From the IMG/VR virus record IMGVR_UViG_3300038369_000022, positions 1 through 20,883 of that record: a stretch of DNA of 20,883 nucleotides. One strand, 5' to 3'. Below the pieces are notes generated by a model that saw nothing but the letters and a program-made list of their open reading frames with translations, did not search any database and was not told the origin of the DNA. The DNA is from a virus. The first letter of the stretch is position 1; every line of letters begins with the position of its first letter. This document shows positions 4,335 to 17,902 of this stretch, piece by piece. A program made the position numbers and the translations under genes.

Positions 4335-6707
4335 ATGGCTACAGCGTATACTACATCTTTAAAATTAGCGTTACCTACACAAGGAGAATTGACAGGTACT
4401 TGGGGAGACACGCTTAATAATCAAGTAACTTCTATGATAGAAGAAGCTGTTGCTGGGTTAAAAACTATAAATACTTGGAGTACAAACTCTGCTACATTAT
4501 CTACAGCAGACGGCACAACCTCTGAATCACGAGCAGCTATTTTAAATTTAACAGATACAACCTCTGATTTAAGTGGTGCAGGCACTGTAATATGCCCTGC
4601 AGCAAGTAAAGTTTACATAGTTAAGAACGCTACTGGACAAACAATTACAGTTAAAACAGCTTCAGGTAGTGGTATTGCTATACCAGATGGTACAACTGGG
4701 TTTGTGTATTGTGACGGCACAAACGTACTAGAAGCACTAACAAACGTAGCTGGTAACTTAGTAGTTGGTGGTAATGCTTCTATAGGTGGTAATCTTACTG
4801 TAACAGGTACAACCACATTTAATGGTGGCACACTTACTCTTGGTGATGCTAACACAGATAACATTGTGTTTGGTGGTGAGGTAGATTCTAACATTATACC
4901 TGATGATGACGACACACATGATTTAGGATCGTCTAGTAAGAAATGGAAAGATATATACATAGATGGCATAGCTTATATAGATGCTGTAAATCTTGCTGGA
5001 ACAGCAATAACTGCTACAGCAGCAGAAATAAATATACTTGATGGCGTAACGTCCACAGCATCAGAGCTTAACATATTAGATGGTGTAACATCTACAGCAG
5101 CAGAACTTAATATATTAGATGGTGTAACAGCCACCACCGCAGAATTAAATATACTTGATGGTGTAACAGCCAGTGCTGCTGATATTAATTTAATTGATGG
5201 TATTACAAATGGAACAGTATCGGCATCAAAAGCTGTAATAGTTGATTCAAACAAAGACATAAGCGGATTTAGAAATCTTAGTATTACAGGTGACTTAACA
5301 GTTGCAGGTGATGATATTACCATGGGGACTAACACTTCAGGTAACTTACTTGTTGCAGATGGAACAAACTTTAACTCTGTAGCAGTAGGCGATTTATCAG
5401 AAATATCTTCAGTAGCAAACGATGATGTATTTTTAGCAGTAGACACTTCTGGTGGTGGTCTTAAAAAGATTACAAGAAGTACAATCGTATCAGGACTAGC
5501 TGTTGGTGGTGTCGCTTTATCTAACATAGTAGAGGATACAACTCCTCAACTTGGTGGCAACTTAGACATGAATGGTCAAGATATTGTTACTACCTCAAAT
5601 GCTAACATCGAACTTGCTGCAAATGGAACAGGAAAAGTAGTTGTAAAAGGTAATACCAATCAGGGAGCTATACAATTAAATTGTGAAGCAAACTCACACG
5701 GACAAATCATAATAGCTGCACCACACTCAGAAAGTGCATCTAACACTTTAACTTTACCAAGCACAGGTGGTGATGCTAGATTAGTCTCAACATCTTCAAC
5801 TGCTACACTAACAAACAAAACATTAACAGATCCTGTAATAACAAACATGACAGGCTCTACAATAACATTAGACTCTGCAGGAGACATCACTCTTGATGCA
5901 GGTGGTGCAGACATATTGTTAAAAGATGATGGTACAACTTATGGTGGACTTAGTAACAATAGTGGTGAACTTCTTATAAAGTCAGGCACTACAACTGCCA
6001 TGACATTCAGTGGTGCTAACGTAACACTAGAAGGTAACTTAACTGTATCAGGTACAACCACTACAGTAAATTCAACAACAGTAAATTTAAATGACCATAA
6101 CATTGTATTAGATAGTGGTAATAGCACAAGTGCAGTGGTAAATGGTGCAGGTATTACAATAGAGGGTGGTTCAGGTGATGACGCTACATTTAGCTATAAT
6201 ACAACAGGCCCTAAGTTTGAATTAAAATTAGGTTCAAACCACGAAGATTTACAAGTTGACCAACTAATAGCAGCATCTTTAGATATATCAGGAGATGTAG
6301 ATGTAGACGGAACTTTAGAAACAGACGCATTATCTATCAATGGTACGACAGTTACGTCAACCGCAGCAGAATTAAACATACTTGATGGTGTAACATCAAC
6401 AGCATCAGAGCTTAATATACTTGATGGTGTTACATCCACAACAGCAGAACTTAATATATTAGACGGTGTTACCTCAACAACAGCAGAGTTGAACATCTTA
6501 GATGGCGTAACATCCACAGCAGCAGAGCTAAATATTATGGATGGTAATACATCCGCTTCCTCTACGACATTAGTAGATGCAGACAGAGTAGTAACAAATG
6601 ACAATGGAACAATGAAGCAGGTCGCTTTATCTGATGTCAAAACATATTTAAGTAGTGCAGGGTTTACCACAGACGACCCAACTGCACTTGCAATAGCGTT
6701 AGGATAA
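4335..6707 (+). CDS. Long phage tail fibre with AELNILDGVT repeats
   Basis: 790 residues. The N-terminal LKLALPTQGELTGTWGDTLN (residues 9-28) is a recognised start for marine phage fibre proteins and probably attaches to the tail. Next come beta-rich modules such as GNLTVTGTTTFNGGTLTLGD and DDTHDLGSSSKKWKDIYIDG (near residues 197-216), a first block of five 13-residue repeats (228-292), a middle section with ATLTNKTLTDPVI and DITLDAGGADILLKDDGTTY, and a second block of five repeats (676-740). It ends STTLVDADRVV...LSDVKTYLSSAG. Such fibres form long trimers that reach toward the host. There is no S74 chaperone at its end. Long antisense frames across it only reflect its composition. Confidence 0.92.
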   Translation: MATAYTTSLKLALPTQGELTGTWGDTLNNQVTSMIEEAVAGLKTINTWSTNSATLSTADGTTSESRAAILNLTDTTSDLSGAGTVICPAASKVYIVKNATGQTITVKTASGSGIAIPDGTTGFVYCDGTNVLEALTNVAGNLVVGGNASIGGNLTVTGTTTFNGGTLTLGDANTDNIVFGGEVDSNIIPDDDDTHDLGSSSKKWKDIYIDGIAYIDAVNLAGTAITATAAEINILDGVTSTASELNILDGVTSTAAELNILDGVTATTAELNILDGVTASAADINLIDGITNGTVSASKAVIVDSNKDISGFRNLSITGDLTVAGDDITMGTNTSGNLLVADGTNFNSVAVGDLSEISSVANDDVFLAVDTSGGGLKKITRSTIVSGLAVGGVALSNIVEDTTPQLGGNLDMNGQDIVTTSNANIELAANGTGKVVVKGNTNQGAIQLNCEANSHGQIIIAAPHSESASNTLTLPSTGGDARLVSTSSTATLTNKTLTDPVITNMTGSTITLDSAGDITLDAGGADILLKDDGTTYGGLSNNSGELLIKSGTTTAMTFSGANVTLEGNLTVSGTTTTVNSTTVNLNDHNIVLDSGNSTSAVVNGAGITIEGGSGDDATFSYNTTGPKFELKLGSNHEDLQVDQLIAASLDISGDVDVDGTLETDALSINGTTVTSTAAELNILDGVTSTASELNILDGVTSTTAELNILDGVTSTTAELNILDGVTSTAAELNIMDGNTSASSTTLVDADRVVTNDNGTMKQVALSDVKTYLSSAGFTTDDPTALAIALG
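5016..5210 (+). repeat. First block of five 39-base (13-residue) fibre repeats
   Basis: Five contiguous copies of a 39-base unit encode TAAEINILDGVTS and variants (TASELNILDGVTS, TAAELNILDGVTA, TTAELNILDGVTA, SAADINLIDGITN). The last copy is the most diverged, as expected at a repeat edge. Repeats of this type form regular turns of a trimeric fibre shaft. The same unit recurs at 6360-6554. Confidence 0.93.
6360..6554 (+). repeat. Second block of five 39-base (13-residue) fibre repeats
   Basis: Five contiguous copies encode TAAELNILDGVTS, TASELNILDGVTS, TTAELNILDGVTS twice, and a diverged last copy TAAELNIMDGNTS. The block has the same number of units as the one at 5016-5210 and the same order of TAA then TAS for its first two units, so the blocks may descend from a duplicated cassette. 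Third-position changes show that the copies are not brand new. Confidence 0.93.
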
Positions 6708-6711
6708 TAAC

Positions 6712-7077
6712 ATGGCAAATACATTTAAAACAGTCACATTTGCAGCCGAGCCAGCCAGTGCAGGGACTCCATATGTAATGTATACAGTGGCAGGAAGCAC
6801 TACAACTGTTGTCTTAGGTTTAGTTCTTGCAAATATACATACAGCACAAGTTACAGCAACAGTCAGGTTAGTTAGTGATACAGGTAGCAGAGGTGGTTCA
6901 AACAACGTAACAAACGGAACAAGTATTATTGTACAAGATGCACCCATACCTGTTGGAAGTAGTTTAGAGCTACTATCGGGTAACAAAGTTGTATTAGAAG
7001 CTACCGATCAAATTACTATAGATTGTTCTGTAGCAGACAAATTAAGTGGCACACTAAGTATTATGGAGATAACATAA
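6712..7077 (+). CDS. Small beta-rich virion protein, related in plan to 17573-17902
   Basis: 121 residues beginning MANTFKTVTFAAEPASAGTP. The pattern is YTVAGSTTTVVLGLVLANIH, then strands, then NGTSIIVQDAPIPVGSSLEL and NKVVLEATDQITIDCSVADK, ending LSIMEIT. This is a compact beta-sandwich type pattern (a YxxxxxxTxxVxxLxxAN opening and a VxLExxDxIxxxxS ending) seen in small phage structural proteins; the exact role is not known. It sits between the long fibre and the 361-aa fibre, 4 bases after one and one base before the other. A small protein near the nozzle gene (17573-17902) shows the same plan. A fibre-base or tail-tip part is plausible. Confidence 0.82.
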   Translation: MANTFKTVTFAAEPASAGTPYVMYTVAGSTTTVVLGLVLANIHTAQVTATVRLVSDTGSRGGSNNVTNGTSIIVQDAPIPVGSSLELLSGNKVVLEATDQITIDCSVADKLSGTLSIMEIT

Positions 7078-7078
7078 G

Positions 7079-8164
7079 ATGGCATACATCGGTAATCCAC
7101 CTGCTAATAGATTTGTAGCACCTAAAGCAGCGTCTGTATTTTCAGGCGATGGTTCTACAACTGCATTTACATTAGACCATGCAGTAGGGTCTGATGAAGA
7201 TATACTTGTATCGGTGGATGGTGTTATACAAGAGCCATCTGTAGCATATGCAGTTAGCAACGGAACTACACTTACATTTACTGCTGCACCATCAAGTAAC
7301 TCAGGTAATAATATCTTTGTGTATTATTTGTTTAGGACAGTAGGCACAGTAAGTCATCCAAGTAATAATGCGTTACAAGCATCGGATATAACCATAGACA
7401 CCACGACCTTAGTAACAGATAGTACAAATAATCGTGTGGGTATGGGAATTGTAAGTCCTGATGGAACTTTGCACGTTCATTCTGCTACAGCAGGAAGTGT
7501 TACAGCTAATACGGATGCTGATGATTTAGTAGTTGAAAATAGTGGTCACGCAGGAATAAATATTTTAAGTCCTGATGCAAATAGGTCAGCCATACAGTTT
7601 GGACACACCTCTGATAATTTAAAACTGCAAATTAGACATGATGGTGGAACTAGTCTAAGTCAAATTATTTCTGACGATACACTTACCTTTAATGTAGGTG
7701 GTGGTACGGAGAGGATGAGAATTGACACGAATGGTCATATAACCAAGCCAACTCAACCAGCTTTTTCAGTAGCACCACCTAGTAATCAACTTAATGTATC
7801 AGATAGTGATGTTATTGTATTATCAAATGAAGCATTTGACCAAAATGGAGATTTTGCATCTAACACATTTACTGCACCAGTTACTGGAAAGTATCAACTA
7901 CAAGTTACTGGTAGGGTTGACCAAATAGATACAGATGCTAATTGGGTTAGAATTGAAATGGTTACTTCTAATAGAGAATATCAAGAAAGTATAATTGACC
8001 CTGATGCTTTTGATAGAGATCCTGATCATTGGTCTTTTCATTTTGCTTTATTAGCAGATATGGATGCTAATGATACAGTATTTTTAAGATGGGGTCAGTC
8101 AGGTGGTAGTGCTACGGCTGACGTTGATACACAATTTCGTTTTTCAGGCTACTTAGTAGCATAA
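7079..8164 (+). CDS. Tail fibre protein with MAYIG anchor and C1q-like C-terminal domain
   Basis: 361 residues. The N-terminus MAYIGNPPANRFVAPKAASV, followed by FSGDGSTTAFTLDHAV and ILVSVDGVIQEP, is a T7 gp17-type tail-attachment pattern common in phage fibres. The middle has a shaft segment (RVGMGIVSPDGTLHVHSATA; FNVGGGTERMRIDTNGHI). The C-terminal ~130 residues (from QPAFSVAPPSNQL) contain FDQNGDFASNTFTAPVTGKY and end FRFSGYLVA, which resembles the C1q/TNF-like jelly-roll fold used as a trimeric head for binding. That head is shared with the protein at 8513-9016. It probably contacts the host surface. The fold call is from motif resemblance; specificity is unknown. Confidence 0.88.
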   Translation: MAYIGNPPANRFVAPKAASVFSGDGSTTAFTLDHAVGSDEDILVSVDGVIQEPSVAYAVSNGTTLTFTAAPSSNSGNNIFVYYLFRTVGTVSHPSNNALQASDITIDTTTLVTDSTNNRVGMGIVSPDGTLHVHSATAGSVTANTDADDLVVENSGHAGINILSPDANRSAIQFGHTSDNLKLQIRHDGGTSLSQIISDDTLTFNVGGGTERMRIDTNGHITKPTQPAFSVAPPSNQLNVSDSDVIVLSNEAFDQNGDFASNTFTAPVTGKYQLQVTGRVDQIDTDANWVRIEMVTSNREYQESIIDPDAFDRDPDHWSFHFALLADMDANDTVFLRWGQSGGSATADVDTQFRFSGYLVA

Positions 8165-8203
8165 GCCAAGAGTGAAACAACTCAATCATAAAGGAGATAA
8201 AAA

Positions 8204-8503
8204 ATGGCAAATCACACAAAGACAATAACATTAACAGATTTACAACAAAAGATTTTGTCTAATGATTTATACAATGACGTATCTGACAACAAAGGTATAG
8301 ACGAGTGGTTGGATGGTGCAATCAATGGCAAGATAAACAACTGTTGGAAGCGTATGCAGACAGAGTGGACTACAAAGTTGATGAACGACAGTAGCTTCAC
8401 AGACCCCATACCAAGCAACCAAGCAGACTTTGTTGCACTTGTAACTGCAAGAAGTGACTATAAGACACGCAAACAAAGAGATGATGCAAATAAAATTGAG
8501 TAG
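8204..8503 (+). CDS. Small helical protein between fibre genes, function unknown
   Basis: 99 residues with a strong AAAGGAGATAAAAA ribosome-binding site. It is mostly charged and helical, with ITLTDLQQKILSNDLYNDVS, IDEWLDGAINGKINNCWKRM, and the C-terminal FVALVTARSDYKTRKQRDDA. I recall similar proteins between tail-fibre genes of marine phages, with the DGAINGKINxCxxRM segment as their most typical part. It is not beta-rich, so it is unlikely to be a fibre; a chaperone or assembly factor for the neighbouring fibres is a reasonable guess, nothing more. The 39 bases ahead of it hold only the ribosome-binding site. Confidence 0.8.
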   Translation: MANHTKTITLTDLQQKILSNDLYNDVSDNKGIDEWLDGAINGKINNCWKRMQTEWTTKLMNDSSFTDPIPSNQADFVALVTARSDYKTRKQRDDANKIE

Positions 8504-8512
8504 GAATAACGA

Positions 8513-9016
8513 ATGGCATTAACAAAAATACAAGGTTCAGGCATAAGTGGTGTAACTATTTCTGCTAACAATGAAATAAATATGACATCACAACCTGCTT
8601 TTAGTGTTCACAAAAATGGCACACATCAAGAAAATTTTGCCAATGATGGTTCAGCAGTCACAGTTACTTGGAGTACAGAAAGGTTTGATAATAATAACGA
8701 TTTTTCATCAAATACATTCACTGCTCCTGTTACAGGAAAATATCTTTTAACTTTGGTAATGAGAATTAATACTTTAGATACAGTGCCAACTTATTATATT
8801 CCTACGATAGTAACATCTAATCAAAGTTATAGAGACATTATAGACCCTAATTACGCATCCGACCTTAATTATAAGGCTTTTAAAGTAGTAGTAGTAGCAG
8901 ATATGGATGCAAGTGATACTTGCACCGTAACAATGCAACAAAGTGGGGGAGACCAAGCTAGTGATATCAACGGTGACAATCCTTACACATATTTCACAGG
9001 TGCATTACTATGTTAG
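8513..9016 (+). CDS. Short fibre-like protein: adaptor plus C1q-like head
   Basis: 167 residues. A short N-terminus (MALTKIQGSGISGVTISANN) is followed by NMTSQPAFSVHKNGTHQENF and a C1q-like domain whose centre reads FDNNNDFSSNTFTAPVTGKY. It ends TYFTGALLC. The head matches the C-terminal third of the 361-aa fibre: both contain QPAFSV, then F(D)(Q/N)N(G/N)DF(A/S)SNTFTAPVTGKY, (I/V)VTSN(R/Q), I(I)DP, and ADMDA(N/S)DT. So this protein is essentially that head without the long shaft. It could assemble with the larger fibre or offer a second binding specificity. The start follows an AGGAATAACG site. Its short N-terminus (MALTKIQGSGI) is a pattern known from other phage fibre proteins. Confidence 0.85.
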   Translation: MALTKIQGSGISGVTISANNEINMTSQPAFSVHKNGTHQENFANDGSAVTVTWSTERFDNNNDFSSNTFTAPVTGKYLLTLVMRINTLDTVPTYYIPTIVTSNQSYRDIIDPNYASDLNYKAFKVVVVADMDASDTCTVTMQQSGGDQASDINGDNPYTYFTGALLC

Positions 9017-9026
9017 GAGATAATTT

Positions 9027-10826
9027 ATGGCATATATAGGAGTCAGTCCATCTAACGGAGTTCGTAGGGTTCACACCTACACTGCCACAGCATCGCAGAC
9101 CACATTTAGTGGTGCAGGTGCAGAGGGTACATCTTTAAGTTACAAAGACAGTAACTTTGTAGATGTGTATCAAAATGGTATCAAGTTAGGTGATGCAGAC
9201 TATACATCAACAAGTGGTACATCAATCGTACTAGCACAAGGAGCATCCGTAGATGACCTCGTGGTAGTCGTAGTATTTGATGTGTTCTCGGTAGCAGACA
9301 CTGTAAGTAAAGCAGATGGTGGTACGTTTGATGGTGCAGTTACTATGGCAGGTACACTTGGGGTTACAGGTGCTACTACATTAACAGGTGGTGTGTCAGG
9401 TAACACAACATTTAGTGGTGAGATAATAACATCTACAAGTGGCACATCAAATGTAAGAATTGGAGAAAATGCAGGAGATGCTATTGCAAGTGGAGGAAAT
9501 TATAATGTACTCATTGGAGATGAAGCTGGAACAGCACTTACAACTGGTGATAATAACACATTTGTAGGATATGCTTCTGGAGATGCTCAAACAGTTGCAG
9601 ATAACAATACAGCAGTTGGGTATGAAGCATTAAGTACAAATGTAAATGGTAGTGCATGTGTTGCTATAGGTTACAGAGCTTTAAAAACACAAAACTATGG
9701 TAGTGCTACAGATTCTTTCAATGTTGCGATTGGAAATGTAGCAGGAACATCAATAACTACTGGTACTTTAAACACTTTAGTTGGCTCAATATCTGGAGAT
9801 GCACTAACTACTGGTATTACAAATGTTGCACTCGGATATGGTTCATTGACCTCTGACACAGCAGGAAACAGGTCAACTGCTTTAGGTTACAACACACTTC
9901 AGAATCAAAATCTTTCTAGCTCTACAGATACTTACAATACAGCAGTAGGATTTCAAGCAGGTATAAGTGTAACAACAGGACTCTACAATACGTTAATGGG
10001 TGGACAAGCAGGTGATGCCTTAACTGATGCTGACTATAACACTTATATTGGATACAGTGCTGGTGGTGCTGATGATTTAGGAAGTTATAATGTTGCAGTG
10101 GGAGCAGGTGCTTTATCAACTTTAAATTATTCAGGTGCAACAAATGGACAGAATGTAGCAGTTGGATATAATGCCCTACAAGATCAAACAACAGCAGTGC
10201 AAAATACTGCTGTAGGAAATCATGCTGGTGGAGGTGTTACTACAGGAAGTTACAATATCTTTATAGGAAATGCAGCAGGAGACCATGATAACCCTACTAC
10301 AACTGGTGGTCCTAATATTGTTATAGGTGCATATGCAGACACTTCGGCTGGAGCAAGTACTCATCAAATTGTTATGGGGTATAATGTTACTGGGTCTGGA
10401 GATAACAACTTTACTTTTGGTAACACAGGCACAGATTCAAATATTGCTTTTGGTGCAACATCTATAACTGCGCCATCAGACATTAGACTTAAAGAAGATA
10501 TTAAAGACGAAACTGTAGGTCTTGAATTTATAAATGAACTAAGACCTGTGACATTTAGGTGGAAAAAAGCAAAAGATGTGCCATCTGAAATGAAAGTACA
10601 TTCTGATTCAGAAGAAAGAGTTATGAATGGTAAATATAATCATGGATTCATAGCACAAGAAGTTAAATCTGTAATTGATAAATATGACATTAAAGATGGT
10701 TTTGGAATGTGGACAGAAGATGAAGTAGATGGTAGACAAAGAGTTGCACCATCAGAATTAATACCTATGCTTGTGAAAGCCATACAAGAGTTATCAGCAG
10801 AAATAAAAGCATTAAAAAGAGAGTAA
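9027..10826 (+). CDS. Tail fibre with S74 intramolecular chaperone (autocleaving) C-terminus
   Basis: 599 residues. MAYIGVSPSNGVRRVHTYTA starts a tail-attachment domain (about 1-95), followed by a short shaft and then a long head-type repeat region (about 142-480) with motifs such as NTAVGYEAL, NVAIGNVAGTSITTG and NTFVGYASG. Residues 484-599 form a Peptidase_S74 / endosialidase-type intramolecular chaperone: SDIRLKEDI (Ser484, Asp485, Arg487, Lys489), FRWKKAKDVP, HGFIAQEV, and a C-terminal coiled-coil LIPMLVKAIQELSAEIKALK. In this family the chaperone helps the trimer fold and then cuts itself off just before the Ser of SDxRxK, so cleavage before Ser484 is predicted. It would serve as a receptor-binding fibre. 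Confidence 0.93.
   Translation: MAYIGVSPSNGVRRVHTYTATASQTTFSGAGAEGTSLSYKDSNFVDVYQNGIKLGDADYTSTSGTSIVLAQGASVDDLVVVVVFDVFSVADTVSKADGGTFDGAVTMAGTLGVTGATTLTGGVSGNTTFSGEIITSTSGTSNVRIGENAGDAIASGGNYNVLIGDEAGTALTTGDNNTFVGYASGDAQTVADNNTAVGYEALSTNVNGSACVAIGYRALKTQNYGSATDSFNVAIGNVAGTSITTGTLNTLVGSISGDALTTGITNVALGYGSLTSDTAGNRSTALGYNTLQNQNLSSSTDTYNTAVGFQAGISVTTGLYNTLMGGQAGDALTDADYNTYIGYSAGGADDLGSYNVAVGAGALSTLNYSGATNGQNVAVGYNALQDQTTAVQNTAVGNHAGGGVTTGSYNIFIGNAAGDHDNPTTTGGPNIVIGAYADTSAGASTHQIVMGYNVTGSGDNNFTFGNTGTDSNIAFGATSITAPSDIRLKEDIKDETVGLEFINELRPVTFRWKKAKDVPSEMKVHSDSEERVMNGKYNHGFIAQEVKSVIDKYDIKDGFGMWTEDEVDGRQRVAPSELIPMLVKAIQELSAEIKALKRE
9450..10466 (+). repeat. Degenerate head-type repeat region in the S74 fibre
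   Basis: Residues about 142-480 carry repeated units built around N(T/V)(A/F/L)(V/I)G(Y/N)...AG or AL, spaced roughly 18-28 residues apart, for example NVRIGENAGDAIASGGNYNV, NTFVGYASGDAQ, NTAVGYEALSTN and NTAVGNHAGGGVTTGSYNIF. The pattern resembles the left-handed beta-roll heads of trimeric adhesins of the YadA type. The copies are too diverged at base level to be recent duplicates. Confidence 0.75.
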
Positions 10827-17379: not shown

Positions 17380-17573
17380 TGGCTGTAGATAACACAAGAT
17401 ATGGTGTAGGTTTCCGTGCTCCAGCATTACCATTTCCTACTCCTGAATACGACCAACAAAACGCAGAACAACTTAATAATGTATTACGTTTGTATTTTAC
17501 TCAGGTAGATACAGCGTTAAGAAATGCTGTTATATCGGACAGAGCTGAAGCAACAGGGTGGTTTTTAAGCTAA
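17379..17573 (+). CDS. Small conserved phage protein downstream of the nozzle gene
   Basis: 64 residues: MAVDNTRYGVGFRAPALPFP, TPEYDQQNAEQLNNVLRLYF, TQVDTALRNAVISD and a short tail. The P-x-P-x-x-x-YD...QL-N-x-LRLYF-x-Q-(V/L)D pattern is recurrent in marine phages just after the nozzle-type gene. It is mostly one amphipathic helix with a Pro-rich start and may form an attachment point on the tail. Its ATG shares an A with the nozzle stop, and its own stop shares an A with the next start (TAATG), so three proteins are translated in close linkage. Confidence 0.85.
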   Translation: MAVDNTRYGVGFRAPALPFPTPEYDQQNAEQLNNVLRLYFTQVDTALRNAVISDRAEATGWFLS

Positions 17574-17902
17574 TGCCTAATAAATACGTAAATGCAAAAA
17601 AAGATTTATCTAGCACTAGTGTGACAACACTATATACAGCACCTGCATTAACTACAGGTATTGTTAAATCTATACTCGTGTCAGAGGACTCGGGAAACGC
17701 AGATACAATAACTTTAACAATAACAGATGCAGAGTCTTCTCCTGCTACTTTTAGTTTATTTAAAACAAAATCTGTTAGTGCAAATGCTACAGTAGAACTA
17801 CTAACGGCTCCTCTAGTTGTAGAAACTGGAGAAATATTAAAAGTTACAGCTGCTACAGCTAATAGATTACATGTCGTTGCCAGTATATTAGAGGTGTCGT
17901 AA
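17573..17902 (+). CDS. Small beta-rich virion protein, related in plan to 6712-7077
   Basis: 109 residues from ATG at 17573. Five upstream codons starting at a GTG (17558) lie inside the previous gene and lack the TAATG junction used throughout this region, so they are not preferred. Sequence MPNKYVNAKKDLSSTSVTTL, YTAPALTTGIVKSILVSEDS, then LKVTAATANRLHVVASILEV. The opening Y-T-x-P...T-x-x-V-K-S-I and the ending TGEILKVTA...HVVASILE match the layout of the protein at 6712-7077. It is all-beta in appearance with few charges, likely a tail part near the nozzle. Function unknown. Confidence 0.83.
   Translation: MPNKYVNAKKDLSSTSVTTLYTAPALTTGIVKSILVSEDSGNADTITLTITDAESSPATFSLFKTKSVSANATVELLTAPLVVETGEILKVTAATANRLHVVASILEVS

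Follow-up and report, generated by a model that had tools for sequence, protein, structure and literature searches.

The window, that is, the whole 20.9-kb virus record that was analysed, belongs to a marine phage and contains a run of tail-fibre genes on the plus strand. The features that concern us here are the following:

6712..7077, plus strand: conserved gene of 121 amino acids (aa) directly upstream of gene A, PHROG 1276-like
7079..8164, plus strand: gene A, a long fibre of 361 aa, with an anchor (about residues 1-90), a shaft (about 91-212) and a C1q head (220-361)
7715..7765, plus strand: linker upstream of the gene A head, RMRIDTNGHITKPTQPAF, where the DNA shared with the B gene of locus L030 starts
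7736..8161, plus strand: C1q-like head of gene A
8165..8203, plus strand: conserved leader between the stop of the C1q head and g99; contains a ribosome-binding site and possibly a GAGU-GAAACA-ACUC hairpin
8204..8503, plus strand: g99, a gene for a small protein of 99 aa that accompanies C1q heads and probably acts as their assembly chaperone or cap
8513..9016, plus strand: gene B, short (167 aa), with a MALTK-type N-terminus of about 20 aa and a C1q head; without a partner gene of its own
8573..9013, plus strand: C1q-like head of gene B
9027..10826, plus strand: gene C, a fibre of 599 aa, with an A-like anchor and a C-terminal S74 domain in place of a C1q head

Gene A has an N-terminal anchor shared with known tail fibres, as is expected of a receptor-binding phage fibre: its residues 1-154 match phrog_18673, annotated as tail fiber (E 1e-16), and its residues 1-97 match the tail fibre of Puniceispirillum phage HMO-2011 at 52.6%. 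A Phage_T7_tail match in the same protein fell below the Pfam cut-off. For gene B, no known anchor was found in Pfam or PHROG, and only the short MALTK-type N-terminus precedes the head. C1q heads are present at the position of gene C in some other phages. The g99 gene, which lies between genes A and B, was absent from a preliminary description of this DNA. An Rfam search of the window gave no match. The gene at 6712-7077 and an ORF at 17558-17902 both match PHROG 1276 and are possible paralogues encoding a small virion protein. A fibre-like protein of 790 aa with many ELNILDGVT-type repeats is encoded at 4335-6707, and four small ORFs in succession (452-1892) encode products very rich in K/R, which perhaps bind DNA.

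The preliminary description had claimed that the long fibre and the short protein share a C1q-like head, and this proved to be correct: both ORFs are present, and the common region covers residues 220-361 of the protein encoded by 7079-8164 and residues 21-167 of that encoded by 8513-9016. Heads of the same family are thus found at the C-terminus of both proteins, in one case on a shaft and in the other almost bare. In a BLASTP comparison of the two proteins, 59 of 148 residues are identical (40%; 98.6 bits, E 1e-29); the DNA of the two heads has one 28-bp blastn match and also a 59-nt stretch at 71%. Assignment to the C1q/TNF domain by sequence profile comes from the gene A head, together with the family profile: Pfam C1q (PF00386) matches residues 228-360 of the gene A protein with 24.9 bits against a cut-off of 23.7, and the gene B protein alone has no Pfam match. 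The beta jelly-roll fold of this domain was seen for the gene B head only, in a predicted structure (AlphaFold2, mean pLDDT 88.9, pTM 0.81). A Foldseek search of the PDB with this model returned 348 chains at E <= 0.001, C1q/TNF chains making up most of the 50 listed, among them the CBD of the short tail fibre of cyanophage A-1(L) (8ke9, E 4e-8) and C1QL2 (4qpy, E 6e-8).

When the window proteins alone were searched against PDB sequences, nothing useful was obtained. When a profile of 44 relatives was compared with PDB sequences, it matched C1q-related factor (1e-5) and cerebellin-1 (2e-12), the latter with an inflated score because the matched chain consists of three fused copies. The anchor half of the profile gave weak matches to antibody light chains (E 1e-4 and worse), which were taken as spurious. 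Matches of the gene A protein to designed SAKe repeat proteins were discarded, as they lie mostly outside the head. The sequence blocks that had been quoted as shared by the pair are indeed found in both heads, but they are not specific to the pair, being conserved throughout the 44 sequences. In the numbering of the short protein, A71, P72, G75, Y77, D132 and D135 are invariant, and T70, V73, T101, S102, N103, D130, M131 and A133 are conserved in at least 90% of the sequences. Our best guess is that both heads have a receptor-binding role.

The two heads belong to the same family with 40% identity, their genes lie close together, and a long and a short gene recur as a pair in relatives. These observations would fit the earlier proposal that one head arose from the other by duplication in this lineage, gene B being copied from gene A or the reverse, and then diverged. 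The proposal was not borne out by the comparison with heads of other phages. The set used consisted of 52 distinct heads from the window, the loci fetched with gene A (the best 80 of 196) and one locus fetched with gene B, after dropping L082 and L083, which are copies of the window, and heads with E >1e-10, and after collapsing identical heads. The window pair is 41.4% identical, compared with a median of 43.3% over all pairs of the 52 heads. Within this phage family, the two heads thus align no better with each other than with other C1q heads, an outcome that the preliminary description itself had linked to independent acquisition. Both heads are far closer to heads at the other position in other phages: within the 52-head sample, the nearest relative of the gene A head is the head of the short (B) gene of L030 (77.5% over 142 residues), and that of the gene B head is the head of the long (A) fibre of L021 (79.6% over 147 residues). 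Both cross-position pairings are also found in the 52-head tree and in the DNA, where 7715-8164 of the window matches 4356-4805 of L030 at 79% without gaps, and 8590-9010 matches 3796-4216 of L021 at 87%.

The AU test rejects the two window heads as sisters (p 4.3e-8), and forcing them together costs 117 log-likelihood units. In addition, dS within the window pair is 2.04, and hence saturated, compared with 0.65 and 0.40 to the cross-position relatives in L030 and L021, respectively. The dN/dS between the heads, a comparison that had been suggested by region and was computed over the head plus 16 upstream codons, is uninformative because of this saturation. The cross-position nearest relatives, the DNA blocks, the AU test and the dS values exclude a recent duplication or gene conversion inside this genome. 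We also identified 32 genes that have a MALTK-type start and are situated before gene C, and that bear other heads; although they were selected by this start and place, they indicate that gene B represents a fibre position in its own right, as opposed to a gene A that has lost its shaft. Duplication in this lineage is therefore highly improbable. An ancient duplication at the base of the entire head family may have occurred, but this would not be specific to this phage. The two window heads look as if they were drawn separately from a head pool common to phages, and not copied from each other.

Across the family, knowing which fibre gene carries a head says almost nothing about the ancestry of that head. 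Gene position (A, B, C or other) changes 15 times on the 52-head tree, compared with a mean of 15.5 after shuffling, and values as low were obtained in 91 of 200 shuffles. When 92 heads were labelled by N-terminal cluster, 39 changes were counted on a quick tree built from few columns, compared with 41.7 for shuffled labels (as low in 19 of 200). The A and C anchors fall in one cluster in this N-terminal clustering, which means that it is position, and not anchor family, that separates A from C. Ten of the 18 head pairs that are at least 70% identical are located on N-termini without detected homology (blastp threshold E 1e-4 from the protein start), although the pairs are not all independent, three of them coming from L006, L112 and L121. 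The heads of L112 and L121 are 98% identical, with a dS of 0.04, on N-termini without detected homology, and in two more of the 18 pairs, L038/L039 and L005/L019, the heads occupy different gene positions on related anchors. Exchange is not perfectly free, because nearest heads are found on a common anchor in 37 of 92 cases, which is somewhat above chance (shuffled mean 29; as high in 57 of 1000 shuffles).

The DNA matches give an indication of where the junctions lie. The match between the A head of L009 and the B head of L026 starts at the head start, those of window/L030 and L005/L019 start about 6-7 residues upstream of it, and that of window/L021 starts about 5 residues inside the head; the DNA blocks end at the head boundaries. 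It is likely that the linker at 7715..7765 is an exchange boundary. For distant heads that are complete and reach at least 100 bits, the linker shows a nucleotide identity of 0.68 and the end one of 0.63, compared with 0.42-0.57 over most of the head. The raised ends are not by themselves proof of homologous recombination, because conserved motifs within the head reach equally high values (0.64-0.75). At L039, positions 6001-6945 join a gene A anchor (94% DNA identity to gene A of L038) to a shaft and head that resemble gene C of L038 (8188-9177; 92.5% at the DNA level), which either reflects an A-C fusion that occurred in nature or is an artefact of assembly. Since the contigs are metagenomic, some fusions, and especially that of L039, which lies near a contig end, may be assembly chimeras.

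Most of the loci analysed were fetched by their similarity to the window, the best 80 being retained per scan. A scan of IMG/VR with g99 found 395 relatives, and among the best 80 of these, three loci without a readable upstream gene were dropped. In 74 of the remaining 77, corresponding to 65 distinct proteins, the gene preceding g99 bears a head of this family. These head-bearing proteins range from 166 to 1474 aa and have varied N-termini. The distance from the last head codon to the start of g99 is 39-50 bp in 65 cases, 13-14 bp in eight, and 118 bp in one broken gene. In this last case (L136, upstream of 2384), the head ORF stops 118 bp 5' of g99 and the remainder is apparently readable further on, as in a frameshift-like break. 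The three exceptions, L095, L102 and L103, have another head on gene A (with a weak 23-bit match in L103) and a C1q gene B in each case; gene A's own small partner gene is visible in two of the three, and at L102 it was not found as an ORF.

The same association was observed when loci were fetched by gene A (the best 80 of 196, of which 16 A genes with <700 bases downstream were dropped). In this set, 23 of 24 A genes whose head belongs to the close family are followed by g99, compared with none of the 19 with another head (21/22 and 0/16 after deduplication). At the exception, L019, position C is occupied by a second C1q head, and g99 comes after that head. When the gene A head belongs to a diverged C1q subfamily, it is not accompanied by g99 (0 of 12; 8 distinct proteins), the split between close and diverged subfamily having been made after seeing the result; at the five such loci that were inspected (L040, L042, L049, L057 and L077), a different gene of 87-90 aa follows. 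To these we add a neutral set of 80 loci that were fetched by the upstream 121-aa gene and hence blind to heads and g99, 49 of which were usable (30 were too short and one was a duplicate). In this set, g99 is present in five of the six loci with a strong C1q head and in none of the other 43 (Fisher 3e-6), the positive loci being only six in number and the sixth (L224, without g99) ending inside the head gene; weaker C1q-like matches occur in nine of the 43 loci without a strong head or g99. g99 is thus located directly 3' of one class of fibre tip and is inherited together with it, as expected of a fibre chaperone.

A single g99 accompanies multiple heads. Exactly one copy is found in all 15 independent groups with two or three strong heads, the window included, and two copies in one locus were not found in any of 231 loci (fragments and duplicates included), although metagenomic contigs may miss a second copy elsewhere. 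When a C1q gene B has g99 just upstream, it has no partner of its own (14 of 14, including the window and three loci fetched by g99); there is no room for one because gene C starts 14-21 positions after the last B codon. When gene B carries another head, a different small gene comes next in 29 of 32 cases; at L008, one of the remaining three, such a gene is present but overlaps gene B at its end. The gene B counts leave out the weak-head loci L052, L038, L123 and L020, of which all but L052 have a small partner gene. Conversely, a C1q gene B that is not preceded by g99 is followed directly by it in six of six loci, a weak count because five of the six were fetched by g99 itself. At L172 and L210, which belong to the neutral set, g99 likewise follows directly after a C1q gene B that has no C1q fibre upstream.

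Small genes at equivalent positions in relatives include two that are Phage_tail_APC according to Pfam and one just below the XkdW cut-off. The S74 domain is an intramolecular chaperone, and Pfam names it as such. No small gene follows 25 of 32 S74 fibres; of the other seven, three precede a MSKAAD gene, taken as another tail gene. Gene C of the window is an S74 fibre with a small gene after it. The 54 fibres with neither C1q nor S74 are followed by a small gene in 26 cases, by none in 23, by an unread gap in four and by g99 in one; in this fibre-partner count, L027 was scored 'no ORF' although its g99 sits 13 bp 3' of the head. The presence of a partner is therefore not set by head type alone, given that gene C of the window has one and 23 of the 54 other fibres have none.

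No significant match to any family was found for g99 in Pfam or PHROG, the known chaperone families Phage_tail_APC, Caudo_TAP and XkdW included. Its predicted model is all-helical (pLDDT 72, pTM 0.42) and gave no significant PDB match, so that the term chaperone is based on position and co-occurrence. Searches with tblastn using two g99 versions gave no match in 50,697 phage records, and none of 24 candidate stretches in a bacterial and archaeal genome collection was confirmed as g99. Its conservation is informative with respect to another possible role. In T2-type phages, gp38 is a tip adhesin, and g99, which follows directly after the head and goes with it, could by analogy be the tip adhesin itself, sitting on the C1q head and giving specificity. 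However, 30 other g99 sequences are 79-97% identical to the window copy (a range biased upward, as most were fetched by g99), compared with 33-72% for head-bearing proteins relative to the gene B protein, which is the opposite of what a specificity-determining tip should show, and a single g99 copy accompanies several different heads. This makes an adhesin role unlikely, and the conservation of g99 against the variation of the head-bearing proteins favours a helper.

The leader of about 40 bp and g99 are strongly conserved at the DNA level across different fibres. Where the gene before g99 is not a C1q gene (L095, L102 and L103), the leader is absent, as it is from a few loci in which the gap measures 13-14 bp. 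Its possible hairpin of 4 bp with a GAAACA loop shows partial covariation (10 cells changed on both sides versus 3.2 in shuffles), and RNAalifold predicted no structure in the leader. The strong conservation would also be compatible with g99 being a passenger, kept because the DNA formed by head, leader and g99 offers homology for recombination, and having no functional link to the head. This is rather unlikely in view of L095, L102 and L103, which retain g99 without the leader while having a different gene A head and a C1q gene B, and of L172 and L210 from the neutral set, where g99 lies directly next to a C1q gene B without a C1q fibre upstream.

Our best explanation as a whole, in which we have considerable confidence, is that the heads are cassettes exchanged across positions and phages, and that g99 is a trans-acting helper of this head class. 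Genes A, B and C would represent three fibre positions used for host recognition, each of them having an N-terminal attachment sequence that differs from the others in belonging to that position. The C1q-like heads would form C-terminal cassettes that move from one of these positions to another and from phage to phage; their 5' junction would lie at the conserved linker or close to it, and their 3' junction at the head stop codon. The two heads of the window would accordingly come from different branches of the head pool. The g99 product would assist this class of heads specifically, most likely as an assembly chaperone or as a transient cap, and because it would act in trans, one copy could serve every C1q head in the genome. 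Both heads would then be part of the virion and bind receptors. An extension of this explanation, for which we see an even chance, is that g99 functions as a licence: with one trans-acting helper, any fibre position could accept a C1q head without a partner, so that marine phages of different kinds would exchange heads even between fibre genes that are not homologous, and would assemble virions in which a single chaperone serves two or three different heads.

The almost bare gene B head deserves separate consideration. With only about 20 residues before the head and no shaft, gene B could encode a decoy or a regulatory copy that remains outside the virion. In this respect it matters that the stem-CBD of the A-1(L) short tail fibre binds host cells and the CBD without the stem did not (PMC10966104); this CBD (8ke9) is the best Foldseek match of the gene B head, but with 18% identity. 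Against a decoy, genes at the B place have a MALTK-type start irrespective of the head that they carry (they were picked by this start), which is what a docking peptide would lead one to expect, and the place of gene B within the run of fibre genes is fixed. We therefore regard a decoy or regulatory role as quite unlikely, and favour a gene B head that, like that of gene A, would be part of the virion.

Exchange of fibre tips has precedents. Tetart in 1998 and Haggard-Ljungquist in 1992 reportedly described the swapping of distal fibre adhesins in T-even phages and the exchange of tail-fibre and assembly proteins in P2/Mu. In these systems, recombination at conserved motifs swaps the tip together with its assembly protein. 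These exchanges are known to take place at the same gene position, whereas the heads described here also cross fibre positions.

C1q heads have been published as variable receptor binders of phages (PMC3909814, PMC7468147), and metaviromic islands of marine phages contain putative receptor-binding proteins with C1q domains (Mizuno et al. 2014, PMC3909814). The heads in that study resemble ours in being located beside tail-fibre genes, hypervariable and proposed to act in host recognition; the variability reported, in the part of the text available, is between populations, and neither head exchange between fibre genes nor a dedicated small partner is described there. C1q domains and domain swapping have also been published for the fibres of injection systems (PMC12923769). 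The unrelated Alteromonas phages A5 and V22 share modules of a tail fibre and its cognate chaperone (PMC10579305). As in our case, a fibre and a downstream chaperone, proposed to cap the fibre, are common to distant phages, but the fibre and chaperone families are different ones and occur as pairs, whereas here one g99 accompanies one to three heads; the term C1q has no occurrence in that text. A TNF-like tail fibre with a separate small phage-encoded chaperone, gp24/gp25, is known from Pam3 (PMC9608196), where gp25 is a two-domain chaperone of 162 aa, whereas g99 has 99 aa and is predicted to be all-helical. Neither cross-position exchange of C1q heads nor a C1q-specific partner gene was found in the titles and abstract openings of the open-licence literature, among the matches listed. 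Head swapping together with a cognate chaperone is thus already known, and the addition made here seems to be cross-locus exchange under one shared small gene.

These results turn an apparent gene duplication into evidence for a pool of receptor-binding heads common to ocean phages, and suggest what may be the function of g99, a conserved gene for which 395 relatives were found in IMG/VR. They also provide a simple genomic rule that can be checked in new genomes, namely that g99 is present when there is at least one head of this class, and once only, and suggest how phages could hold several host-binding specificities together at low gene cost.

The second C1q subfamily seems to have a small gene of its own. 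The heads of this subfamily are followed by a different small gene (MAEIKVTVSDTQ...), located at 7069-7338 in L042, 3227-3496 in L057, 1134-1394 in L040 and 1388-1651 in L049. An hhalign comparison of g99 with these MAEIKV-type genes gave a probability of only 30%. Immediately downstream of C1q-domain genes, distant relatives of the second-subfamily small gene occur in cultured Synechococcus phage S-SRM01 (tblastn E 0.04) and Limnohabitans phage DC33 (E 1e-4). The latter (L237, PQ492659.1) is filed under Inoviridae despite its 39 kb and an 848-aa gene ending in a C1q domain, which is perhaps a taxonomy error.
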